From: Candidatus Staskawiczbacteria bacterium RIFCSPHIGHO2_02_FULL_43_16
GTDB lineage: Bacteria > Patescibacteriota > Minisyncoccia > Minisyncoccales > Staskawiczbacteraceae
Direction: 5' to 3'
DNA length: 47,298 bases
Assembly: GCA_001821935.1 (NCBI GenBank)
Contig: MHOU01000002.1
Coordinates: 58,793 to 106,090, forward strand
In this document: piece by piece, positions 2,461-45,624 of the stretch
How the letters are laid out: each line of letters begins with the position of its first letter
Position numbering within the stretch: the first letter of the stretch is position 1
The notes under the pieces: generated by a model
Seen by the model: the letters and a program-made list of their open reading frames with translations, nothing else
Told to the model about the DNA's origin: nothing
Databases searched by the model: none
Made by a program: the position numbers and the translations under genes

Positions 2461-2555
2461 GAGCAAGGTATCCAGCGCAAATAGGGTCTGAATGTATATT
2501 ATTATATATCAACCCCATTTGCGAGGTGAATTTCCTCGCTTCGCTCCGTAAATTC
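2461..2555 (+). promoter_or_regulatory. Conserved structured leader, copy A (dcd)
   Basis: AAGGTATCCAGCGCAAATAGGGT...ACCCCATTTGCGAGGTGAATTTCCTCGCTTCGCTCCGTAAATTC-ATG; same architecture upstream of thrS and rpmG. Confidence 0.7.
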
Positions 2556-3149
2556 ATGATTCTTTCAGATAAAGACATTAAAAAAGCGCTCAAAGAAGGC
2601 AAGATTGGTATCACGCCCATGTTCCCTAATTCTTTGCAGCCGGCTTCGGTGGACGTTCATTTGGGGTCGGATTTTCTGGTTTTTAAAAATACCAATAATA
2701 TTTGCATTGACCCCAAAGAACCGATTGACGACATGATGGACGAATTAACCATTGATGACAAGCGCCAATTTATTTTACATCCGGGCGAATTCGCTCTGGG
2801 CATGACGTATGAAACGGTTTCAGTTCCTAATGATATGGTGGTGCAGTTAAACGGGAAATCTTCATTAGGCAGGATCGGGCTGATTGTGCACGCCACGGCG
2901 GGTTACGTGGATCCGGGCAACACCTTAAAAATCACTCTGGAATTGCATAATTTGGCCAACCTGCCTATTAAATTGTATTATAAAATGCCCATTGCCCAGA
3001 TTGCGTTTGTTAAACTTTCCAGTGAAGCAGATGTGCCTTATGGCAAGAAAGCCTTAAATAGTAAATACTTTGGCAGTGTAAAGCCGATAGCCAGCCAGTA
3101 CCATAAAAATTTCACCAAAAATAACGAGTGGATTAAGTTTAAAAAGTAA
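2556..3149 (+). CDS. dcd: dCTP deaminase
   Basis: MILSDKDIKKALKEGKIGITP...QPASVDVHLGSDF...GKSSLGRIGLIVHATAGYVDPG. Confidence 0.92.
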   Translation: MILSDKDIKKALKEGKIGITPMFPNSLQPASVDVHLGSDFLVFKNTNNICIDPKEPIDDMMDELTIDDKRQFILHPGEFALGMTYETVSVPNDMVVQLNGKSSLGRIGLIVHATAGYVDPGNTLKITLELHNLANLPIKLYYKMPIAQIAFVKLSSEADVPYGKKALNSKYFGSVKPIASQYHKNFTKNNEWIKFKK

Positions 3150-10085: not shown

Positions 10086-11726
10086 CTATCTCATCTCTTC
10101 TTTTTTGTCTTTGATAAAATACCGCCACTTTTCCAAAAATTCAATGAACACGGAAAAGGGCATGTCTATTAACACATTAAAAAAGGTGGTGATAGCGTTG
10201 TATTTTTTCCATTTGTGGCTCATCCAGCGGCCGGCGCCGGTGATGGGTAAGAGTAGCACGTCAGAAATAAACATGAAAAGCCCACCGCCTCCACTTTCAA
10301 TGGTCAGTTCTTCAGAGCGCGAACGCACCGCCGTGCCAGCGAACAAAATCAAGGCGATGAAAATGATGTTGATAATAATGGAGCTGACCGGGAAGTGAAG
10401 ATAGTTAAACACCCAGTAAATGCCCCCGAAAGAAACCACCGCTCCCATCAGGTAAATAAAAGAAAGCATCAGCCTGGTTGAGACACCGCGTTTCTTGGGG
10501 AGTTTTATCTCATAGATATCGGGCACGTCTTTTTTATGGACGATTTTGAAGGTTTCCATAATGGCCAAAGTCATATTTTTCGTGGAAGGCGGTTTGATGG
10601 TGGCAATGAGCACGGCCATGAGAGCGGTAGGAATGGCAACGTCGGCCGCTAGGGAAAGGGGGTTAATATCTCCGTCGCTGAACAATTTTGCCAATATGAA
10701 TTCAAGCAATATCAGTGAAACGATTTTGGTAATGAAAATTGACGCGGTAGAATACACCGCCGCCCGCCTGATTTTAGCCTTTAAATCCAATAGCCTGGCT
10801 GCGTAAGCTTCGCGGATTGCCCCCTCTAAAAAGGCCGGGTTTTGCAGCTGATTCATTATTTTTTCCGTTTCATCTGCTTGCGCAGCCAGATTTTTTGCCA
10901 GCACATCACCCAGCAGCAAATAAGGCGTGTCATATTTTTCACAAATGGCGTAAAACTTTTTTGCCAGAGGGTGCTGCAAATCTTGTTCAAGGGTTTTGAG
11001 GATCTTATAAATATGCTGGGCAATGGCAGCCAATTGGGCCTCTGACGGATTATCCCAATACGGATATTTATATTTCATCAGGTTGTAATTGATAATGGGC
11101 GTGTCAAACTTAAACAGCGCTTGCTGGACGGCAATGTATATTTGCAAATTCGTATCTTCTTTCTTTAACAACCCGATCCGATAAACCGCCTCTTGTACCT
11201 GGATGCGTTCTTGCATGTGGGAGAACATGTAATCTATCAGTGCCATTTCTTTGAGCGAAGGGGCCAGGGTTTCTTCAATTTCACAGGCCGCGATTTCCAG
11301 CAGATCATGATAAAAATTTAAACCGGCCTTGCCTTTTTTGTTTTCCGGGTTGTTTTTTAAAATAAATACATATTTTTCAATGATGCGCTGGACATCAGAC
11401 ACCTTTGATTCTTCAATAGTGTCATTTAAAAACCAGCCTCCGCGCACTAGTTCCAGCACCAAGGGTTCGGCCACATTTTGGGTGGTAAAGTTATTTAATT
11501 CCAAATCCAAAAACCGCCGTTTCAGTTTCCTGATAATGGCGGCGCGGCGCATTAAATGCTCTTCCTTCCAGTCAATGATGGTGCGGATGTGTTCGTAAAA
11601 AGAGGCGAACTTTGAAGCCACCTCGTCAACGTGTATGGTGGGAGCACCTCCTGTGGGTTTAAGAGATTTTTGCCAAAGCGAGTATTTTTCAATAAGCTCT
11701 TTGGTGGACTGGGTTAGCTCATTCAT
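10086..11726 (-). CDS. Large membrane protein of unknown function (546 aa)
   Basis: Long ORF with several hydrophobic segments in the C-terminal half; overlaps the thrS end by 4 nt. Confidence 0.7.
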   Translation of the reverse strand: MNELTQSTKELIEKYSLWQKSLKPTGGAPTIHVDEVASKFASFYEHIRTIIDWKEEHLMRRAAIIRKLKRRFLDLELNNFTTQNVAEPLVLELVRGGWFLNDTIEESKVSDVQRIIEKYVFILKNNPENKKGKAGLNFYHDLLEIAACEIEETLAPSLKEMALIDYMFSHMQERIQVQEAVYRIGLLKKEDTNLQIYIAVQQALFKFDTPIINYNLMKYKYPYWDNPSEAQLAAIAQHIYKILKTLEQDLQHPLAKKFYAICEKYDTPYLLLGDVLAKNLAAQADETEKIMNQLQNPAFLEGAIREAYAARLLDLKAKIRRAAVYSTASIFITKIVSLILLEFILAKLFSDGDINPLSLAADVAIPTALMAVLIATIKPPSTKNMTLAIMETFKIVHKKDVPDIYEIKLPKKRGVSTRLMLSFIYLMGAVVSFGGIYWVFNYLHFPVSSIIINIIFIALILFAGTAVRSRSEELTIESGGGGLFMFISDVLLLPITGAGRWMSHKWKKYNAITTFFNVLIDMPFSVFIEFLEKWRYFIKDKKEEMR

Positions 11727-13483
11727 TGTTTTTCTGAAATTTCAGTTTTCATTTTTTCCAAAAAGGCTTCAACCGGCATTTGGCCCAAGTCTCCCTGCCT
11801 GCCGGCAGGCAGGCCTTGCCCTCGCGCACGCACGGAAACGGCGCTTGCTGCGATTTCTTTATCGCCCATAATTAATAAATAGGGGATGTGCTGCATTTCG
11901 GCTTCGCGGATTTTTTTACCCAATGTATCGTTTTCTTCGTACATCTTAAATCTTAAATCATGCATCTTAAACTGCTCTGCAATTTTTTTAGCGTATTCAA
12001 AATGCTTATCTGAAATAGGAATAATAGCAATTTGCACCGGCGCCAGCCATAGCGGAAAATTCCCGGCCACGTGTTCAATATATACCGATAAAAATCGTTC
12101 TACGGAACCCATGAGGGCAAAATGTATCATCACCGGAGTTTGGGCTTTCCCGCCGGTATCAATATATTCTAAGCCGAATCGTGCGGGCTGCACAAAATCA
12201 AGTTGGGGAGTAGCCAGTTGCCATTCGCGGCCCAAAGAATCTTTAACCATAAAATCTATTTTGGGCCCGTAAAAAGCCGCTTCGCCTTCGGCAACAAAAT
12301 AATCCAGGTTGTTTTTCTTAGCGATGTCCAGCAAAATGTCTTCAGCCTTTTTCCAAAGTGAAACTTCGCCTAAATACTTTTTAGGATCTTTAGGGTCTCT
12401 GAATGAAAGGCGCGCCCGAAGCGGCATGCCGAATGTTTCGTAAAATATTTTAGTAACGTCAATTAATTCTTGGTAAATTTGTTCAATTTGATCCGGCATG
12501 CAAAAGGTGTGGCTGTCATCTTGAGTAATTGAGCGTACGCGCGAAAGCCCCAATAGTTCGCCGGCTTTTTCATCGCGGTACACGGTGGTGGTTTCCATGT
12601 ATTTTATCGGCAAATCTTTATAGCTGCGGGGTTTTGAGGCGTAAATCTGTTGGTGGTGCGGGCAGTTCATGGGTTTCATTACCAGTTCATCTTTAGTTTC
12701 TTGGCTTTTTACCAAAAATAGTTCACCGCCGAATTTATCCCAGTGGCCGGAAGTTTTATACAAATCATTCTTGGTAATATGCGGGCTCCACACTTTCTGC
12801 CAGCCTTTGGCCGCGCGCAGGCTTTGAGAATATTCGTTTAGCAATTCCCGCAGCCAAGTTCCTTTTTGGGTAAATAATGGCAAGCCCTTGCCGACTTGAT
12901 CGGAAATAGTAAATAAATCCATTTTTTCTCCCAAAATCCTGTGGTCTCTTTTTTTGGCTTCTTCTAACTGCTTCAAATACGCCTCTAATTCTTTTTGAGT
13001 CGCAAAAGCCGTGCCGTAAATACGGGTTAACATTTTATTTTTTTCATCACCGCGCCAATACGCGCCGGCAACTGAAAGCAGTTTGAAATTCTGCAGTTCT
13101 TTTTGCGGGTTTTGTGAGTGGCCGCCTTTACATAAATCCAAAAAGTTTCCCGGGTCGTTTTCGGTAATGGCTTTACCTTCTTTGGCAAAGTCTTTGATAA
13201 GTTCAAGCTTATAGGGGTTATCTTTAAAATGTTTTTTGGCGGTTGCCACCGAAACTTCTTTTACTTCAAAAGCGTGCCATGTGGCAAGGATCTCCCGCAT
13301 CTTTTTTTCAATGGCCGGGAAATCTTCTTGGGAAATGACCGTTTTGCCCATGTCAAAATCTTGGTAAAAACCATTTTCAATGGCCGGCCCGATGGCGTTT
13401 TTAGCTTTAGGCCACAATGTTTTTACTGCCGCGGCCAGCAAGTGGGCGAGTGAATGGCGTAGTTGCTCTGCATGTTCTTCCAT
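11723..13483 (-). CDS. thrS: Threonyl-tRNA synthetase
   Basis: LRHSLAHLLAAAVKTLWP, KGGHSQNP, MKPMNCPHHQQIYASKPRSYKDLPIKYMETTTVYRDEKAGELLGLSRVRSITQDDSH. Confidence 0.96.
   Translation of the reverse strand: MEEHAEQLRHSLAHLLAAAVKTLWPKAKNAIGPAIENGFYQDFDMGKTVISQEDFPAIEKKMREILATWHAFEVKEVSVATAKKHFKDNPYKLELIKDFAKEGKAITENDPGNFLDLCKGGHSQNPQKELQNFKLLSVAGAYWRGDEKNKMLTRIYGTAFATQKELEAYLKQLEEAKKRDHRILGEKMDLFTISDQVGKGLPLFTQKGTWLRELLNEYSQSLRAAKGWQKVWSPHITKNDLYKTSGHWDKFGGELFLVKSQETKDELVMKPMNCPHHQQIYASKPRSYKDLPIKYMETTTVYRDEKAGELLGLSRVRSITQDDSHTFCMPDQIEQIYQELIDVTKIFYETFGMPLRARLSFRDPKDPKKYLGEVSLWKKAEDILLDIAKKNNLDYFVAEGEAAFYGPKIDFMVKDSLGREWQLATPQLDFVQPARFGLEYIDTGGKAQTPVMIHFALMGSVERFLSVYIEHVAGNFPLWLAPVQIAIIPISDKHFEYAKKIAEQFKMHDLRFKMYEENDTLGKKIREAEMQHIPYLLIMGDKEIAASAVSVRARGQGLPAGRQGDLGQMPVEAFLEKMKTEISEKQ
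11794..11813. repeat. 20-bp perfect palindrome in frame in thrS (LPAGRQG)
   Basis: CCTGCCTGCCGGCAGGCAGG. Confidence 0.8.
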
Positions 13484-13575
13484 GAATTGATGTAGCGAAG
13501 CGAAGAAATTCACCTCGAAAATCAGGCTAAGATATATAATATACCTTGTGGCCTGATTTTCGCTGGATACCTTGT
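13484..13575 (-). promoter_or_regulatory. Conserved structured leader, copy C (thrS)
   Basis: Reverse strand: AAGGTATCCAGCGAAAATCAGGC...GCCTGATTTTCGAGGTGAATTTCTTCGCTTCGCTACATCAATTC-ATG. Confidence 0.7.
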
Positions 13576-19006: not shown

Positions 19007-19217
19007 AAGCCGAACCCAAAAGTGAAGGGGGTAGCACTTTTGGGTTTTTTTATGCATTGCAGCCTCCTATATATTGCAAAAAAGAAAGTTATTTGGTATA
19101 GTAAACCTCAAATAGAATCTTGTATCTTGTATCTGGTAGCTTGAATGGAATTTTGAATACGGAATTTGTGCGTCGTATTCTAGCTTCTAGATACTAGATT
19201 CTAGATTCTCAACAACA

Positions 19218-19460
19218 ATGGCTGTTCCGCGACATAAACATACCCGTTCTTCCGTAGGCCAGCGCCGGATGCATATTTTCATCAATCCGGTGGCTTTAGC
19301 AACCTGCAAAAAATGCGGCCGGGCGGTCAAGCCCCATACCATCTGTTCCAACTGCGGATATTATAAAGGCAAAGAGATGATTAACGTGATGGCAAAATTG
19401 ACCAAAAAAGAAAAGAAAGTGAGGGAAAAGGAAATAAAGGAAGCAGAGAAAAATAACTAG
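19218..19460 (+). CDS. rpmF: 50S ribosomal protein L32
   Basis: [17 protein letters not shown]...[26 protein letters not shown]. Confidence 0.95.
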
Positions 19461-19564
19461 AATTCGGTATCTTGTATTCTGGAGCTGGAATAGAATTGAG
19501 AATGCTGATTCAAAATTCAGTATTCAATTCAAGCTACAAGATACAGAATACAGAATTCAAGCAC

Positions 19565-19993: not shown

Positions 19994-20689
19994 ATGACAG
20001 AATTTTCACTTTTTGAAAAAAAGCTGGGATTGAAATTTGCCAATAAAGATTTGTTGACCCAAGCCTTTGTGCATCGCAGCTACTTAAATGAAAATCCGGA
20101 GTTCGGGCTGGACCAAAATGAACGCCTTGAATTTTTGGGAGACGCGGTGCTGGAACTGGTGATTACGGTTCATTTATACCAAGAATATCCCAATGAAGAC
20201 GAAGGCCAGCTCACCAATTGGCGGGCGGCGCTGGTGAATGCAAAAATGCTGACCACGGTGGCGGAAGAACTGGGCTTTAATGACTTTTTACTTTTAAGCC
20301 GCGGGGAAACCAAAGAATTGGGAAAGGCGCGCCAATACATTTTGGCCAATACGTTTGAAGCATTGATCGGCGCGATTTATTTGGATTCTGGCTATGAACC
20401 GTGTGATGTGTTTATAAAAAAGTATTTGCTCAGCCGCCTGCCGGAAATTATCCAAAGCAAGTCGTATAAAGACGCCAAGTCACATTTCCAGGAAGAGGCT
20501 CAGGAAAAAGCCGGGGTGACACCCATGTATAAGGTCGTCAAAGAATGGGGCCCAGACCATAAAAAAGAATTCACCGTTGCGGTTTTCTTGGGTAAAGAAA
20601 TGGTGGCGGAAGGCAAGGGCTATTCAAAACAGGAAGCAGAAGAAGAAGCAGCAAAGGCCGCGCTCATTGCAAAGCAATGGGCGGCCTAG
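19994..20689 (+). CDS. rnc: Ribonuclease III
   Basis: NERLEFLGDAVLELVITVHLY, NTFEALIGAIYLDSGY, C-terminal dsRBD. Confidence 0.96.
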   Translation: MTEFSLFEKKLGLKFANKDLLTQAFVHRSYLNENPEFGLDQNERLEFLGDAVLELVITVHLYQEYPNEDEGQLTNWRAALVNAKMLTTVAEELGFNDFLLLSRGETKELGKARQYILANTFEALIGAIYLDSGYEPCDVFIKKYLLSRLPEIIQSKSYKDAKSHFQEEAQEKAGVTPMYKVVKEWGPDHKKEFTVAVFLGKEMVAEGKGYSKQEAEEEAAKAALIAKQWAA

Positions 20690-20776
20690 AATCTGGAATC
20701 CTGTATTTTGTAGTTAGAATACAAGATTCAAAATTCAATTCAAGCTACTAAATACTAAATTCAAAATTCATAAAAA

Positions 20777-25819: not shown

Positions 25820-25851
25820 CAGAGAATAAAATTAATTAAAAAAGACAAGCA

Positions 25852-25981
25852 AGGTATCCAGCGCAAATGGGGTCTCAAGGGAATGTTTGTTCTCATTTTT
25901 TGCAAAATGCGAACTGAGTGTCGCTACGCTCCCTCAAACCCCATTTGCGAGGTGATTTTCCTCGCTTCGCTCCGGAAAATC
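25852..25981 (+). promoter_or_regulatory. Conserved structured leader, copy B (rpmG)
   Basis: AAGGTATCCAGCGCAAATGGGGT...ACCCCATTTGCGAGGTGATTTTCCTCGCTTCGCTCCGGAAAATC-ATG. Confidence 0.7.
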
Positions 25982-26143
25982 ATGGCCGCAAAAAAACCAT
26001 TTTTGAAAGTGCAATGCACCGCGTGCAAAACCGTCAATTATTTTACTAAAAAGTCAAAATTGATGGCTGACAAAAAACTGGAAATTTCCAAGTTTTGCAG
26101 CACCTGCAAAAAGCACACGGTTCACAAAGAAGGTCGCAAGTAG
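25982..26143 (+). CDS. rpmG: 50S ribosomal protein L33
   Basis: MAAKKPFLKVQCTACKTVNYFTKKSK...KLEISKFCSTCKKHTVHKEGRK. Confidence 0.88.
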   Translation: MAAKKPFLKVQCTACKTVNYFTKKSKLMADKKLEISKFCSTCKKHTVHKEGRK

Positions 26144-33097: not shown

Positions 33098-34236
33098 ATT
33101 CTATTCCAAACTGCAACGTTTTTAAATTTTAATCTTTCTTTTTCTCGGATTTTTTATCCCCGATTAAACACTTCTCTGGGAGTAGAATAGTGTAATCTTT
33201 TCCGCGGCCGGTGATTTAGCAATCTGACAGCTTTCTGAACATCTTGTTGAGTTATTGTAGCAAAGTTGCTCTTCTTTGGGAAGAACTGCCTGAGCAACCC
33301 GTTGGCATTTTCATTGCACCCCCGCTCCCACGAGTGGTATGGATGAGCAAAGTAAATAGTGAGTCCTGTTTGCTGTTCAGTGGCTTCGTGTTCCCAGAAA
33401 ATCGAGCCGTTATCGTAGGTGATGGTATATTTTTTCTTTTTTGAAATCCTTTTGAACCGCAAAATCGTTTTCTCTTTTGCCGTTTCTGCTAACCCTCGCT
33501 CGAGTTTGTCGGCCAGTATCAATCCCGATTTTCGTTCCACGTGGGTAAGGATAGCGGGCTTTTTGTCTTTGCCGATAATGGTGTCCCCTTCAAAGTCGCC
33601 GATACGACCGCGCCGATTAATGATTTCCGGACGCTGGTCAATTCTCCGTTTTTTTAACGCTTCCCTCTGCTTTTCGCGTATTCTGGTGTCATACCGGCGC
33701 CGATACTTGCCCTTCTGGCAACGAAGGTATTTTACCAGGTCTTTTCGTTTTTCATAGATGAATTTGTAAATACTATCTTTGCCGATTTTCTTGCGTTTGT
33801 GATGTTTATTCCACCTGCCGGCAATCTGCTCGGGCGACCAGTAGGTTTTTAGTTTTTTAACCACATACTTTCGCAAAGATATGTCATTTCCAATTTTCTT
33901 AAACCGTGCATTGGCGTTGATTCTTTTTTCTCTGGCCGAGCGTTTTGATTTTCTGACATAGTACCTGCCGTTGGCCCCTTCGCCCCGCTTACGTTCGCGC
34001 CAGATAGTGGTTCTGTTTCTGCAAAGCTGTTTGGCAATATCTTTTTTCTTGACCTTGGCCCGAAGTAGAGCCGCTAACTCATTTTTCTTACCTGTTGTAA
34101 AATGTGCATGGGGCATGTCCGTTATTTGGTTACTAGTTAATGTTGGTTCATTAACCATTGTACCCAATAACGGCTGCTCCGTTTGAATCTCAGTTAGTTT
34201 CACGATTTTTTACCACGTTGCAGTTCGGAGCAGAAT
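33098..34236 (-). mobile_element. IS30-family insertion sequence
   Basis: Imperfect TIRs ATTCTATTCCAAACTGCAACGT / ATTCTGCTCCGAACTGCAACGT (19/22) bracket the transposase ORF. Confidence 0.8.
33154..34203 (-). CDS. IS30-family transposase
   Basis: HTH with KKKDIAKQLCRNRTTIWRERKRG; GDFEGDTIIGKDKKPAILTHVERKSG, NGSIFWEHE, YHSWERGCNENANGLLRQFFPKK. Confidence 0.93.
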   Translation of the reverse strand: MKLTEIQTEQPLLGTMVNEPTLTSNQITDMPHAHFTTGKKNELAALLRAKVKKKDIAKQLCRNRTTIWRERKRGEGANGRYYVRKSKRSAREKRINANARFKKIGNDISLRKYVVKKLKTYWSPEQIAGRWNKHHKRKKIGKDSIYKFIYEKRKDLVKYLRCQKGKYRRRYDTRIREKQREALKKRRIDQRPEIINRRGRIGDFEGDTIIGKDKKPAILTHVERKSGLILADKLERGLAETAKEKTILRFKRISKKKKYTITYDNGSIFWEHEATEQQTGLTIYFAHPYHSWERGCNENANGLLRQFFPKKSNFATITQQDVQKAVRLLNHRPRKRLHYSTPREVFNRG

Positions 34237-41944: not shown

Positions 41945-42041
41945 AAGCCGCAGACTACAGGTCGCGAAAGCATAAACTCCTGTAATAGGCAAAAAACATA
42001 CTCGTGTTTTTTGGTGTCTGCAGGTCGCAGGCTTTTTGTTT
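41945..42041 (+). promoter_or_regulatory. Probable ribosomal protein L10 leader
   Basis: Structured GCCGCAGACTACAGGTCGC...GGTGTCTGCAGGTCGCAGGC with GCAGAC/GTCTGC pairing upstream of rplJ. Confidence 0.55.
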
Positions 42042-42126
42042 AAATTAGGTGTTAGATATTAGGTGTTAGATATTAGCCGAACGGTCGGAAAACTAGCATC
42101 TAAAACCCAACACCCAAAACCCATTT

Positions 42127-42630
42127 ATGGCATTAACAAAAGAAAAAAAATCAAAATCGCTGGAAAGTTTGAAAGAAAAAATTGCCAAGCAAAAATCGGT
42201 TATTTTTGCTGATTTTTCCAAGGTCAATTCGGCGGATTTGTTTAAGCTCCGCAAAGAATTGAAAGAAAACGGCTGTTCCCTGAAAGTGGGCAAGAAAACC
42301 CTCGTCAGGATAGCGTTCGGGCAATCGGGAATTTCATTTTGGAATAACATACAAAAAGTGGTTCCGGGGCAGCTGGCATTGGTGTTTGGCATTGACGATG
42401 AAATTGCGCCCGCGCGCCTGGCCAACAAATTTGCCAAGACCAACGAAAATTTCAAGATTTTAGGGGGAATTTTTGAAAACAGGTTCATTGACCGGGAGCG
42501 GGCATTAGTGTTGGCCAACTTGCCAACCCGTAACGAGTTGCTGGGCAGGATGGTCGGTTCGCTTTCCAGTTCAATGGCAAGTTTTGTGAGAGTATTAGAT
42601 AAAATAAGTAAAATTGAATCTGGAAGCTAG
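42127..42630 (+). CDS. rplJ: 50S ribosomal protein L10
   Basis: MALTKEKKSKSLESLKEKIAKQKSVIFADFSKVNSADLFKLRKELKENG. Confidence 0.93.
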   Translation: MALTKEKKSKSLESLKEKIAKQKSVIFADFSKVNSADLFKLRKELKENGCSLKVGKKTLVRIAFGQSGISFWNNIQKVVPGQLALVFGIDDEIAPARLANKFAKTNENFKILGGIFENRFIDRERALVLANLPTRNELLGRMVGSLSSSMASFVRVLDKISKIESGS

Positions 42631-42718
42631 TAGCTAGAAGCTAGAATAGAATAAAAGAATTCAGAATTCTGTATTCAACATTCAACTCAAGCTACAAGAT
42701 ACTAGATTCTTAAAAAAA

Positions 42719-44616: not shown

Positions 44617-45624
44617 ATGGTGGCGTGGGAAAATATATCCGGCGCTTGGGATAACTTCAAAAATGGTAAAACCAGAAAGCCAGAGGTAAAAGAATTTGAA
44701 AAGAATTTAAAAGCCAATTTGAATGGCATTCAAAAAGAACTCAAAACAAAAAAGTATCACCACGCGTCTTATGATACATTTTACGTAAAAGACCCAAAGC
44801 TAAGAGAAATTAATAAGGCCTGCGTGCGTGACCGGGTGGTGCACCATATTCTTTTTAGAAAGCTTTATTCTATTTTTGACCGCGCGTTTATTTTTGATTC
44901 TTATTCTTGCAGAATCGGGAAGGGCACGCACCGGGCGGTCAGAAGGCTGCATGAGTTTTTTAGGAAGGAAAGCAAAAATAATTCCAGAATGTGCTGGGTG
45001 CTAAAATGCGATGTGAAAAAGTTTTTTGAATCTATTGACCGGGATATTCTGGCGCGGCTTCTTTTTGTTAGAGTTAAAGATGAGGGTGTATTGTGGTTGA
45101 TTTCGGCCATTATTAAGAGTTTCCCAAAAGGCTTGCCCTTGGGGAATATTACCAGCCAATTATTTGCCAATATTTACCTGAATGAGTTAGACCAATTTAT
45201 CAAGCAGACGCTTAAAGTAAAATATTATATCCGCTACTGCGATGATTTTGTTATCTTAAGCCGCGATAAACAGCATTTGGAAAACTTAATTTTAAACATA
45301 GATGAATTTTTACGAAATAATTTGGGGTTGTCTTTGCACCCCGCTAAAGTCACCATTACAAAATATCGCCAGGGGATAGATTTTTTGGGGTATGTAAGCT
45401 TTCCGGGATATTCCATATTGAGGGTTAAAACGAGAAAAAGAATGTTTAGAAAAGTGCTAGGTAAAATAGAAGATTACAAAAGCGGGGTTATTTCCAAGGA
45501 ATCTTTTAGCCAAACTGTTCAGTCATACTTGGGAATGTTAAGCCATTGTAATGCCTATATCGTAAGAGTGGAGTTAATCAAAATAATTAAAGAATCTGGC
45601 ATGACAACTCTGGAAGCCGCTTGA
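44617..45624 (+). CDS. DGR reverse transcriptase
   Basis: KCDVKKFFESIDRDIL, GLPLGNITSQLFANIYLNELDQF (xGxxxSQ), YIRYCDDFVILS, HPAKVTITKYRQGIDFLGY; next to TR. Confidence 0.95.
   Translation: MVAWENISGAWDNFKNGKTRKPEVKEFEKNLKANLNGIQKELKTKKYHHASYDTFYVKDPKLREINKACVRDRVVHHILFRKLYSIFDRAFIFDSYSCRIGKGTHRAVRRLHEFFRKESKNNSRMCWVLKCDVKKFFESIDRDILARLLFVRVKDEGVLWLISAIIKSFPKGLPLGNITSQLFANIYLNELDQFIKQTLKVKYYIRYCDDFVILSRDKQHLENLILNIDEFLRNNLGLSLHPAKVTITKYRQGIDFLGYVSFPGYSILRVKTRKRMFRKVLGKIEDYKSGVISKESFSQTVQSYLGMLSHCNAYIVRVELIKIIKESGMTTLEAA

Follow-up and report, generated by a model that had tools for sequence, protein, structure and literature searches.

A two-hairpin RNA element lies directly upstream of unrelated genes in the genome of a Candidatus Staskawiczbacteria bacterium and, in most copies, takes the first base of the start codon into its second stem. 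The element is a structured RNA, with compensatory changes in its stems beyond those of shuffled controls. Our preferred reading, to which we give a probability of roughly 0.5, is that it is a dispersed structured 5' leader of the Staskawiczbacteria family that would mask the start codon and so gate translation. Members of this family (Staskawiczbacteraceae) are tiny uncultured bacteria. The stretch of DNA that was analysed, hereafter the window, comprises 47,298 nt of Candidatus Staskawiczbacteria bacterium RIFCSPHIGHO2_02_FULL_43_16 (contig MHOU01000002.1, forward strand 58,793-106,090, assembly GCA_001821935.1) and belongs to a genome of 740,502 bases in 12 contigs.

A two-hairpin leader upstream of dcd, thrS and rpmG

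An earlier, sequence-only reading of this DNA had proposed that dcd, rpmG and thrS share a common upstream module, and all three copies were found as it described them. In the copies of the window's own genome, which were examined in stretches taken around matches, the order from 5' to 3' is AAGGTATCCAG, a first hairpin (P1), AGG, a second hairpin (P2) and then the TG of the start codon. P1 is a 12-pair hairpin whose loop is either short (24 nt) or long (~63 nt), and P2 is TGAATTT/AAATTCA with a loop that is again either short (CCTCGCTTCGCTCCGT) or long (~74 nt). The loop variants are recombined differently from copy to copy; thus, the loops behave as modules. A conserved UCGCUUCGCU occupies the apex of the P2 loop, where the pattern RY-NNN-RY forms a two-pair mini-hairpin with covariation of its own. 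The earlier reading was correct that a second stem is present but had drawn it one pair too short, leaving out the pair that is formed by the first base of the start codon. In relatives, other hairpins replace P1 (TCCCGCTTAGCGGGA; ATCCTTCGCC...GGCTCAGGAT), including in nested or tandem arrangement.

The copy upstream of dcd (2465..2556, + strand; 108.4 bits with covariance model R1) has as its final base the A of the ATG start codon (2556-2558, +). The P1 arms, which are supported by covariation, lie at 2476..2487 (CGCAAATAGGGT) and 2512..2523 (ACCCCATTTGCG), and the stem they form is 92% complementary, with a single A-C mismatch. The 5' arm of P2, TGAATTT, likewise supported by covariation, lies at 2527..2533 and its 3' arm, AAATTCA, whose last base is the first of the start codon, at 2550..2556 (all on the + strand). 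Between these arms, at 2537..2544 (+), is the conserved apical segment of loop 2, CGCTTCGC, containing the mini-hairpin GC-TTC-GC, the two-pair covariation of which was reached in 0/2000 shuffles. The gene itself, dcd, encodes dCTP deaminase (2556..3149, +; Pfam PF22769, DCD, 5.1e-42).

On the minus strand, the copy upstream of thrS occupies 13483..13573 (111.4 bits, model R1) and runs into the ATG at 13483-13481. Its P1 arms lie at 13551..13562 (CGAAAATCAGGC) and 13516..13527 (GCCTGATTTTCG); its P2 arms, taken from a direct reading of the sequence, are TGAATT at 13507..13512 and AATTCA at 13483..13488, the latter ending on the A of the start codon. Pfam domains PF00587, PF03129 and PF07973, including those of the class II synthetase core and the anticodon, identify the product of thrS (11723..13483, -) as threonyl-tRNA synthetase. 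(Note that the 5' start of the element in this copy, ACAAGGTAT, is found at 13567-13575 and again in the copy's own loop 1 at 13541-13549, a recurrence that suggests a nested origin for this loop.)

The third copy, upstream of rpmG, has the long form of loop 1 and spans 25851..25982 on the + strand (86.7 bits, model R1), with, on that strand, its P1 arms at 25862..25873 (CGCAAATGGGGT) and 25938..25949 (ACCCCATTTGCG) and its P2 arms at 25953..25959 (TGATTTT) and 25976..25982 (AAAATCA). The last of these finishes with the A of the ATG (25982-25984, +) that starts rpmG; this gene (25982..26143, +) encodes ribosomal protein L33 (Pfam PF00471, 1.3e-14).

Paired positions change together

The suggestion that paired positions co-change, pointing to a selected RNA structure, was borne out, with covariation that is strong when compared to shuffled, slid and swapped controls. 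Among nine copies from the window's own genome, 5 pairs had changed on both sides. In an alignment of 48 family copies that was fitted to the model, and is thus biased towards it, two-sided change occurred at 15 of 18 pairs (12/12 in stem 1 and 3/6 in stem 2), 93.8% of pair cells held standard pairs, and covariation was 0.532, as against 0.142 in shuffled alignments (0/500) and at most 0.087 in slid ones. An alignment-free test avoids this bias. In that test, the two P1 arms of the same copy paired at -15.1 kcal/mol compared to -9.8 kcal/mol when arms were exchanged among copies within one genome (0/5000); for P2 the corresponding values were -3.79 and -3.28 (3/5000).

Three properties of P2 count against gating. 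Within single genomes its covariation is modest; in the window's genome it is weak and AU-rich, such that it might melt readily; and it is absent from the predicted minimum-energy folds of the short-loop dcd and thrS copies. Two further candidate features were rejected. A third stem, joining the 5' flank (AACGAGC/AGCGAAT) to loop 2, paired no better within copies than after swapping within the genome (3064/5000), and a promoter in loop 1 (TATATTATA) was set aside because that sequence is absent from the mini-hairpin copies of three relatives (G005, G003 and G019).

Stem 2 usually includes the initial base of the start codon

Among 106 copies, the end of P2 lies 0-3 bases from the start codon. 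With P2 read in symmetric register, U faced the initial base of an AUG in 54 copies, C faced that of a GUG in 26 and U that of a GUG in 1. In the other AUG copies (n=25), in most of which P2 ends just before the ATG, the opposing base was C in 8 and A or G in 17. The association of U or C opposite with A or G as the first base gave a Fisher p of about 2e-14, in a set of copies that are not independent of each other. The pairing has switched repeatedly, as seen in genus g9, in the pyk gene of genus g3 (CGAATTT...AAATTCG-TG) and, in G005, at rpmJ (CAAATT...AATTTG-TG). Moreover, lysS orthologs switch both bases between G047 (U, ATG) and G048 (C, GTG), and one further ortholog does so between G048 (U, ATG) and G050 (C, GTG). 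The fact that the first start-codon base usually forms the closing pair, and switches together with its partner, argues that most copies carry that base with them, and that the 3' border of the element lies between the first and second bases of the start codon. In about a quarter of copies P2 stops just before the start codon rather than on it, which counts against gating.

Translation from an in-frame GTG further upstream, which would add the peptide VNFLASLRKF and which the earlier reading had named as a finding that would count against it, does not hold as a general start. Across 108 family copies, an upstream RTG was in frame and open in 36, out of frame or interrupted in 38 and missing in 34, and in the long-loop-2 copies of the window's own genome the frame of the upstream GTG is broken by stops. 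We therefore rejected initiation at this codon, most copies having it out of frame, interrupted or not at all.

Initiation in a family that has lost the anti-Shine-Dalgarno sequence

The only Shine-Dalgarno (SD)-like sequence in the leader precedes P2, and the sequence-only reading had P2 bring this sequence close to the AUG. That proposal failed, given that the anti-SD has been lost in the family and that GAGG is not conserved in relatives. In particular, CCUCC was missing from 20 of the 21 16S tails recovered from the family; in G005, for example, the 3' end of the 16S gene reads GGATCATTTTTTT in place of GGATCACCTCCTTT, and the others of the 20 differ from this in small ways. The sole exception among the 21 is G016, whose tail is canonical and which may be a contaminant. 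A 16S gene for the window's own genome was not found in its assembly, and GGATCACCTCCTT, with one mismatch allowed, had no match there; that this genome, too, has lost the anti-SD is probable by extension from its congeners. A strict SD core was present at the hairpin junction in only 22 of 106 copies, and 19 of 20 listed genes of the window that have no element are without an SD. In the window's own genome, GAGGTGA is conserved before P2. (A 2018 survey of 16S ends reports loss of the anti-SD in Bacteroidetes, Mycoplasma and Carsonella, and a text search of it for these candidate phyla had no match (PMC6107228).)

It had also been suggested that CGAGG pairs with CCTCG and so hides the SD. This match, like its extended form GAGGUGA/UCGCUUC, exists at the level of the consensus, without copy-specific covariation: the alternative hairpin of RRGUGA with the loop sequence UCGCUUC reached -6.1 kcal/mol compared to -3.5 kcal/mol with shuffled loops, yet the pairing within copies was not better than after swapping, and both this hairpin and the CGAGG/CCTCG pairing were rejected.

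Upstream of the element, TATAAT-like -10 boxes were found 119 times where 78 (sd 9) were expected, with a peak 15-30 bases upstream. A peak at this distance implies that many copies would form nearly the whole of the 5' UTR.

Copies, targets and distribution

Building a covariance model and searching the genome and its relatives, the check that had been proposed for the module, brought the number of copies to 16 in the window's own genome and to as many as 31 in relatives. The 13-mer AAGGTATCCAGCG, with at most 1 mismatch, had 14 matches in the 740-kb genome, as against 0 for a reversed control pattern, and all 14 run straight into a start codon. The covariance model adds copies at hppA and ftsH, giving the 16, each of which (16/16) adjoins a start codon. 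Targets in this genome include, as identified by Pfam, dcd, rpmG, thrS, serS, tgt, hisS and rplQ. In the family as a whole, model R2 found copies in 22 of 36 genomes, with numbers that range from 0 to 31 (the maximum in G050), and the element lies 5' of dozens of unrelated, mostly housekeeping genes. With the stricter filters used in the large-scale searches, a class sample of 293 genomes yielded 3 copies in 2 genomes outside the family (G135 and G294), and a phylum sample of 389 genomes yielded no copy except in the window's own genome. (In G294, which lies outside the order, the element stands in tandem before one gene (L219, ~1330-1590), and only the last unit of this array has a P2 3' arm and a start codon.)

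With Rfam 15 at the gathering cutoff, only tRNAs reached the cutoff in the window and 8 relative loci; the T-box model had no match at its gathering score in the window, the thrS copy included, and a permissive scan of the dcd copy returned a single chance microRNA match. The element was also not found in open-licence literature on structured leaders or SD-less initiation in Patescibacteria or Parcubacteria. The two-hairpin RNA thus appears to be previously uncatalogued.

The window contains other hairpin leaders. A second, unrelated dispersed family consists of long imperfect hairpins (TAGAATCTGGTATCTTGTA...CTACTAGATACTAGATTC) that end a few bases before the ATG, at 19090-19217, 19460-19564, 20680-20776 and 42630-42718, before rpmF, nusB, rpsP and rplL. 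More hairpins, again unrelated, lie directly 5' of the start codons of rplJ and rplK (42040-42126 and 1030-1098), and hairpin-like repeats are found 5' of the orf10086 orthologs in G008, G010 and G011 (L190, L191 and L192). Dispersed hairpins that abut start codons may be a general theme of the lineage.

Gain and loss between close relatives

The idea that the module is a spreading leader element gained support from its many copies, from its presence and absence between congeners and from near-identical copies at unrelated genes. The congener G005 is collinear with the window. Its dcd, rpmG and thrS genes are without the element, with a gene and a native leader before the element's position that are similar to those of the window; conversely, rplK, rpsP and rplJ carry the element in G005 and do not in the window. 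Copies at unrelated genes of the same genome are up to 98% alike, and a greA copy has been retained between close genomes (96%); in distant genomes, copies at the same gene are no more alike than others. This pattern of similarity indicates repeated gain by copying together with some inheritance. That copies at the same gene are ancient orthologs throughout was rejected, since such a relation was seen only in some pairs of close genomes.

No terminal inverted repeats were found in the dcd copy, in which inverted repeats were limited to the P1 and P2 arms and one imperfect pair that reaches into the gene. Comparison of filled and empty sites at dcd, rpmG and thrS, where the flanks are highly diverged, showed at most one duplicated base. 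One copy in G005, located in a tRNA cluster (L060, 1018-1115), abuts no start codon; it stops exactly where mature tRNA-Val begins, at the first base of that tRNA. This copy is not explained by a purely translational role and better fits a reading in terms of processing or of a selfish element. (Note that its start lies within an apparent remnant of another subtype, with AATGTGTCGC before and AAGGTATCC after the boundary.)

Two other genes of the window were noted. A reverse-transcriptase gene (44617-45624; Pfam RVT_1, 2.5e-23) would be of interest if the leader spreads via RNA, and an ORF at 33154-34203 resembles an IS30-type transposase by eye, Pfam detecting only a helix-turn-helix (HTH_23, 2.4e-06).

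Proposed gating of initiation and the alternatives

We propose that copies would arise within a genome and become fixed at the start codons of unrelated, mostly housekeeping genes, entering downstream of the short SD-less leaders that these genes already have. P1 would provide a compact, stable 5' end. P2 would close the start codon by holding its first base in a pair, until opened by ribosomes, by a helicase or by an RNA-binding protein specific for the conserved loop, which is a possible protein site. For ribosomes without an anti-SD, access to the start codon is likely to be a main handle on initiation. We infer the gating itself, a transcription start near the 5' end of the element and a trans-acting factor, and spread through an RNA intermediate may occur. 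Housekeeping genes are atypical targets for an OFF switch, which counts against gating. So does the finding that, in Flavobacterium, start codons of highly translated genes are less structured (PMC6847099).

The same anatomy could mark a mobile RNA module that provides, within its own stem, the start codon's first nucleotide and acts as a lineage-specific initiation signal in place of the SD, setting both the choice of start codon and the output of many core genes and possibly spread via RNA, and we advance this reading tentatively; what raises the possibility of an RNA intermediate is that the module lands at start codons and, in one case, where a mature tRNA begins. It is conceivable, if doubtful, that the element is a selfish small repeat, akin to MITEs or double-hairpin elements, whose hairpins serve its own copying, whose copies at start codons are tolerated and whose effects on host genes are incidental. 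Near-identical copies before unrelated genes, turnover between congeners, numbers from 0 to 31 within one family, tandem and nested copies and the copy at the tRNA 5' end would all be expected of such a repeat, and its hairpins, which keep structure rather than sequence, are reminiscent of the mobile double-hairpin elements of fungal mitochondria that PMC5910586 cites. However, AT-rich intergenic DNA should, by a rough estimate from composition, hold more ATGs that are not starts than ones that are, and yet the association with start codons is near-total; moreover, the start-codon base covaries with the element, terminal inverted repeats and a clear target duplication are lacking, and some copies are retained at the same gene between close genomes, as at greA.

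A role in mRNA stability or processing, with P1 shielding the 5' end or offering a site to a ribonuclease, and with a cut at the foot of P2 leaving a defined, nearly leaderless 5' end, strikes us as unlikely. The element does fill nearly the entire UTR behind a promoter-like box, the tRNA copy ends where a processing element should, and ERIC and NEMIS repeats have been proposed to work via RNases (PMC2229807); by itself, however, such a role does not account for the start codon's initial base sitting in a stem and changing along with it. Among the targets are three genes for tRNA synthetases and several for ribosomal proteins, which bring to mind a metabolite riboswitch, a T-box or an autoregulatory leader of ribosomal proteins; we regard such a leader as very improbable in view of the lack of an Rfam match, of a pathway common to the target genes and of any conserved core except the two stems and a short loop. 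A hairpin brings SD and AUG together in gene 38 of phage T4, and the GAGGTGA of the window's genome would allow P2 to loop out the spacer in the same manner and set GAGGTG beside the AUG; with the anti-SD gone from nearly all recovered 16S genes of the family and no conserved GAGG in relatives, we give this arrangement scarcely any credence.

Start-codon gating by P2 thus remains the reading that we favour, and it suggests that the element is a route, so far undescribed, by which to control where and when protein synthesis starts. For the question of how bacteria that have no anti-SD choose their start codons, the leader offers a testable handle on SD-less initiation, with orthologs that do and do not carry it in closely related genomes as a natural experiment. 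Known mobile repeats offer no ready account of how a dispersing element comes to target start codons.

Relation to known leader hairpins and dispersed repeats

In RNA thermometers and the expression platforms of riboswitches, a leader hairpin covers the translation start and is opened for initiation. The leader described here likewise has a hairpin that includes the translation start; those systems, however, as a rule hide an SD and are dedicated to a single regulon, whereas the leader is found where there is no SD system and before many unrelated housekeeping genes. We know of no tie between the double-hairpin elements of fungal mitochondria and start codons, nor of a role for them in mRNA leaders. 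As with the leader, these elements have two adjacent hairpins and have been proposed to be mobile (Paquin et al. 2000, as cited in PMC5910586).

Among bacterial repeats, BOX, RUP, NEMIS/Correia, ERIC and other small ones resemble the leader in being dispersed units of ~100 nt with predicted RNA hairpins; BOX, with its variable number of boxB modules, is modular as the leader is, and some repeats of this type affect the neighbouring mRNA (PMC3049150, PMC2229807). Their positions between or in genes are variable, and several carry terminal inverted repeats as well as TA target sites; the leader, in contrast, ends at a start codon with which it covaries and shows extensive compensatory change. 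Rickettsia palindromic elements share with it a palindromic make-up, a length of 100-150 nt, a reduced host genome and an association with conserved protein genes and some RNA genes, but they can be fused in frame inside coding sequences, whereas the leader stops at the start codon (PMC2229807).
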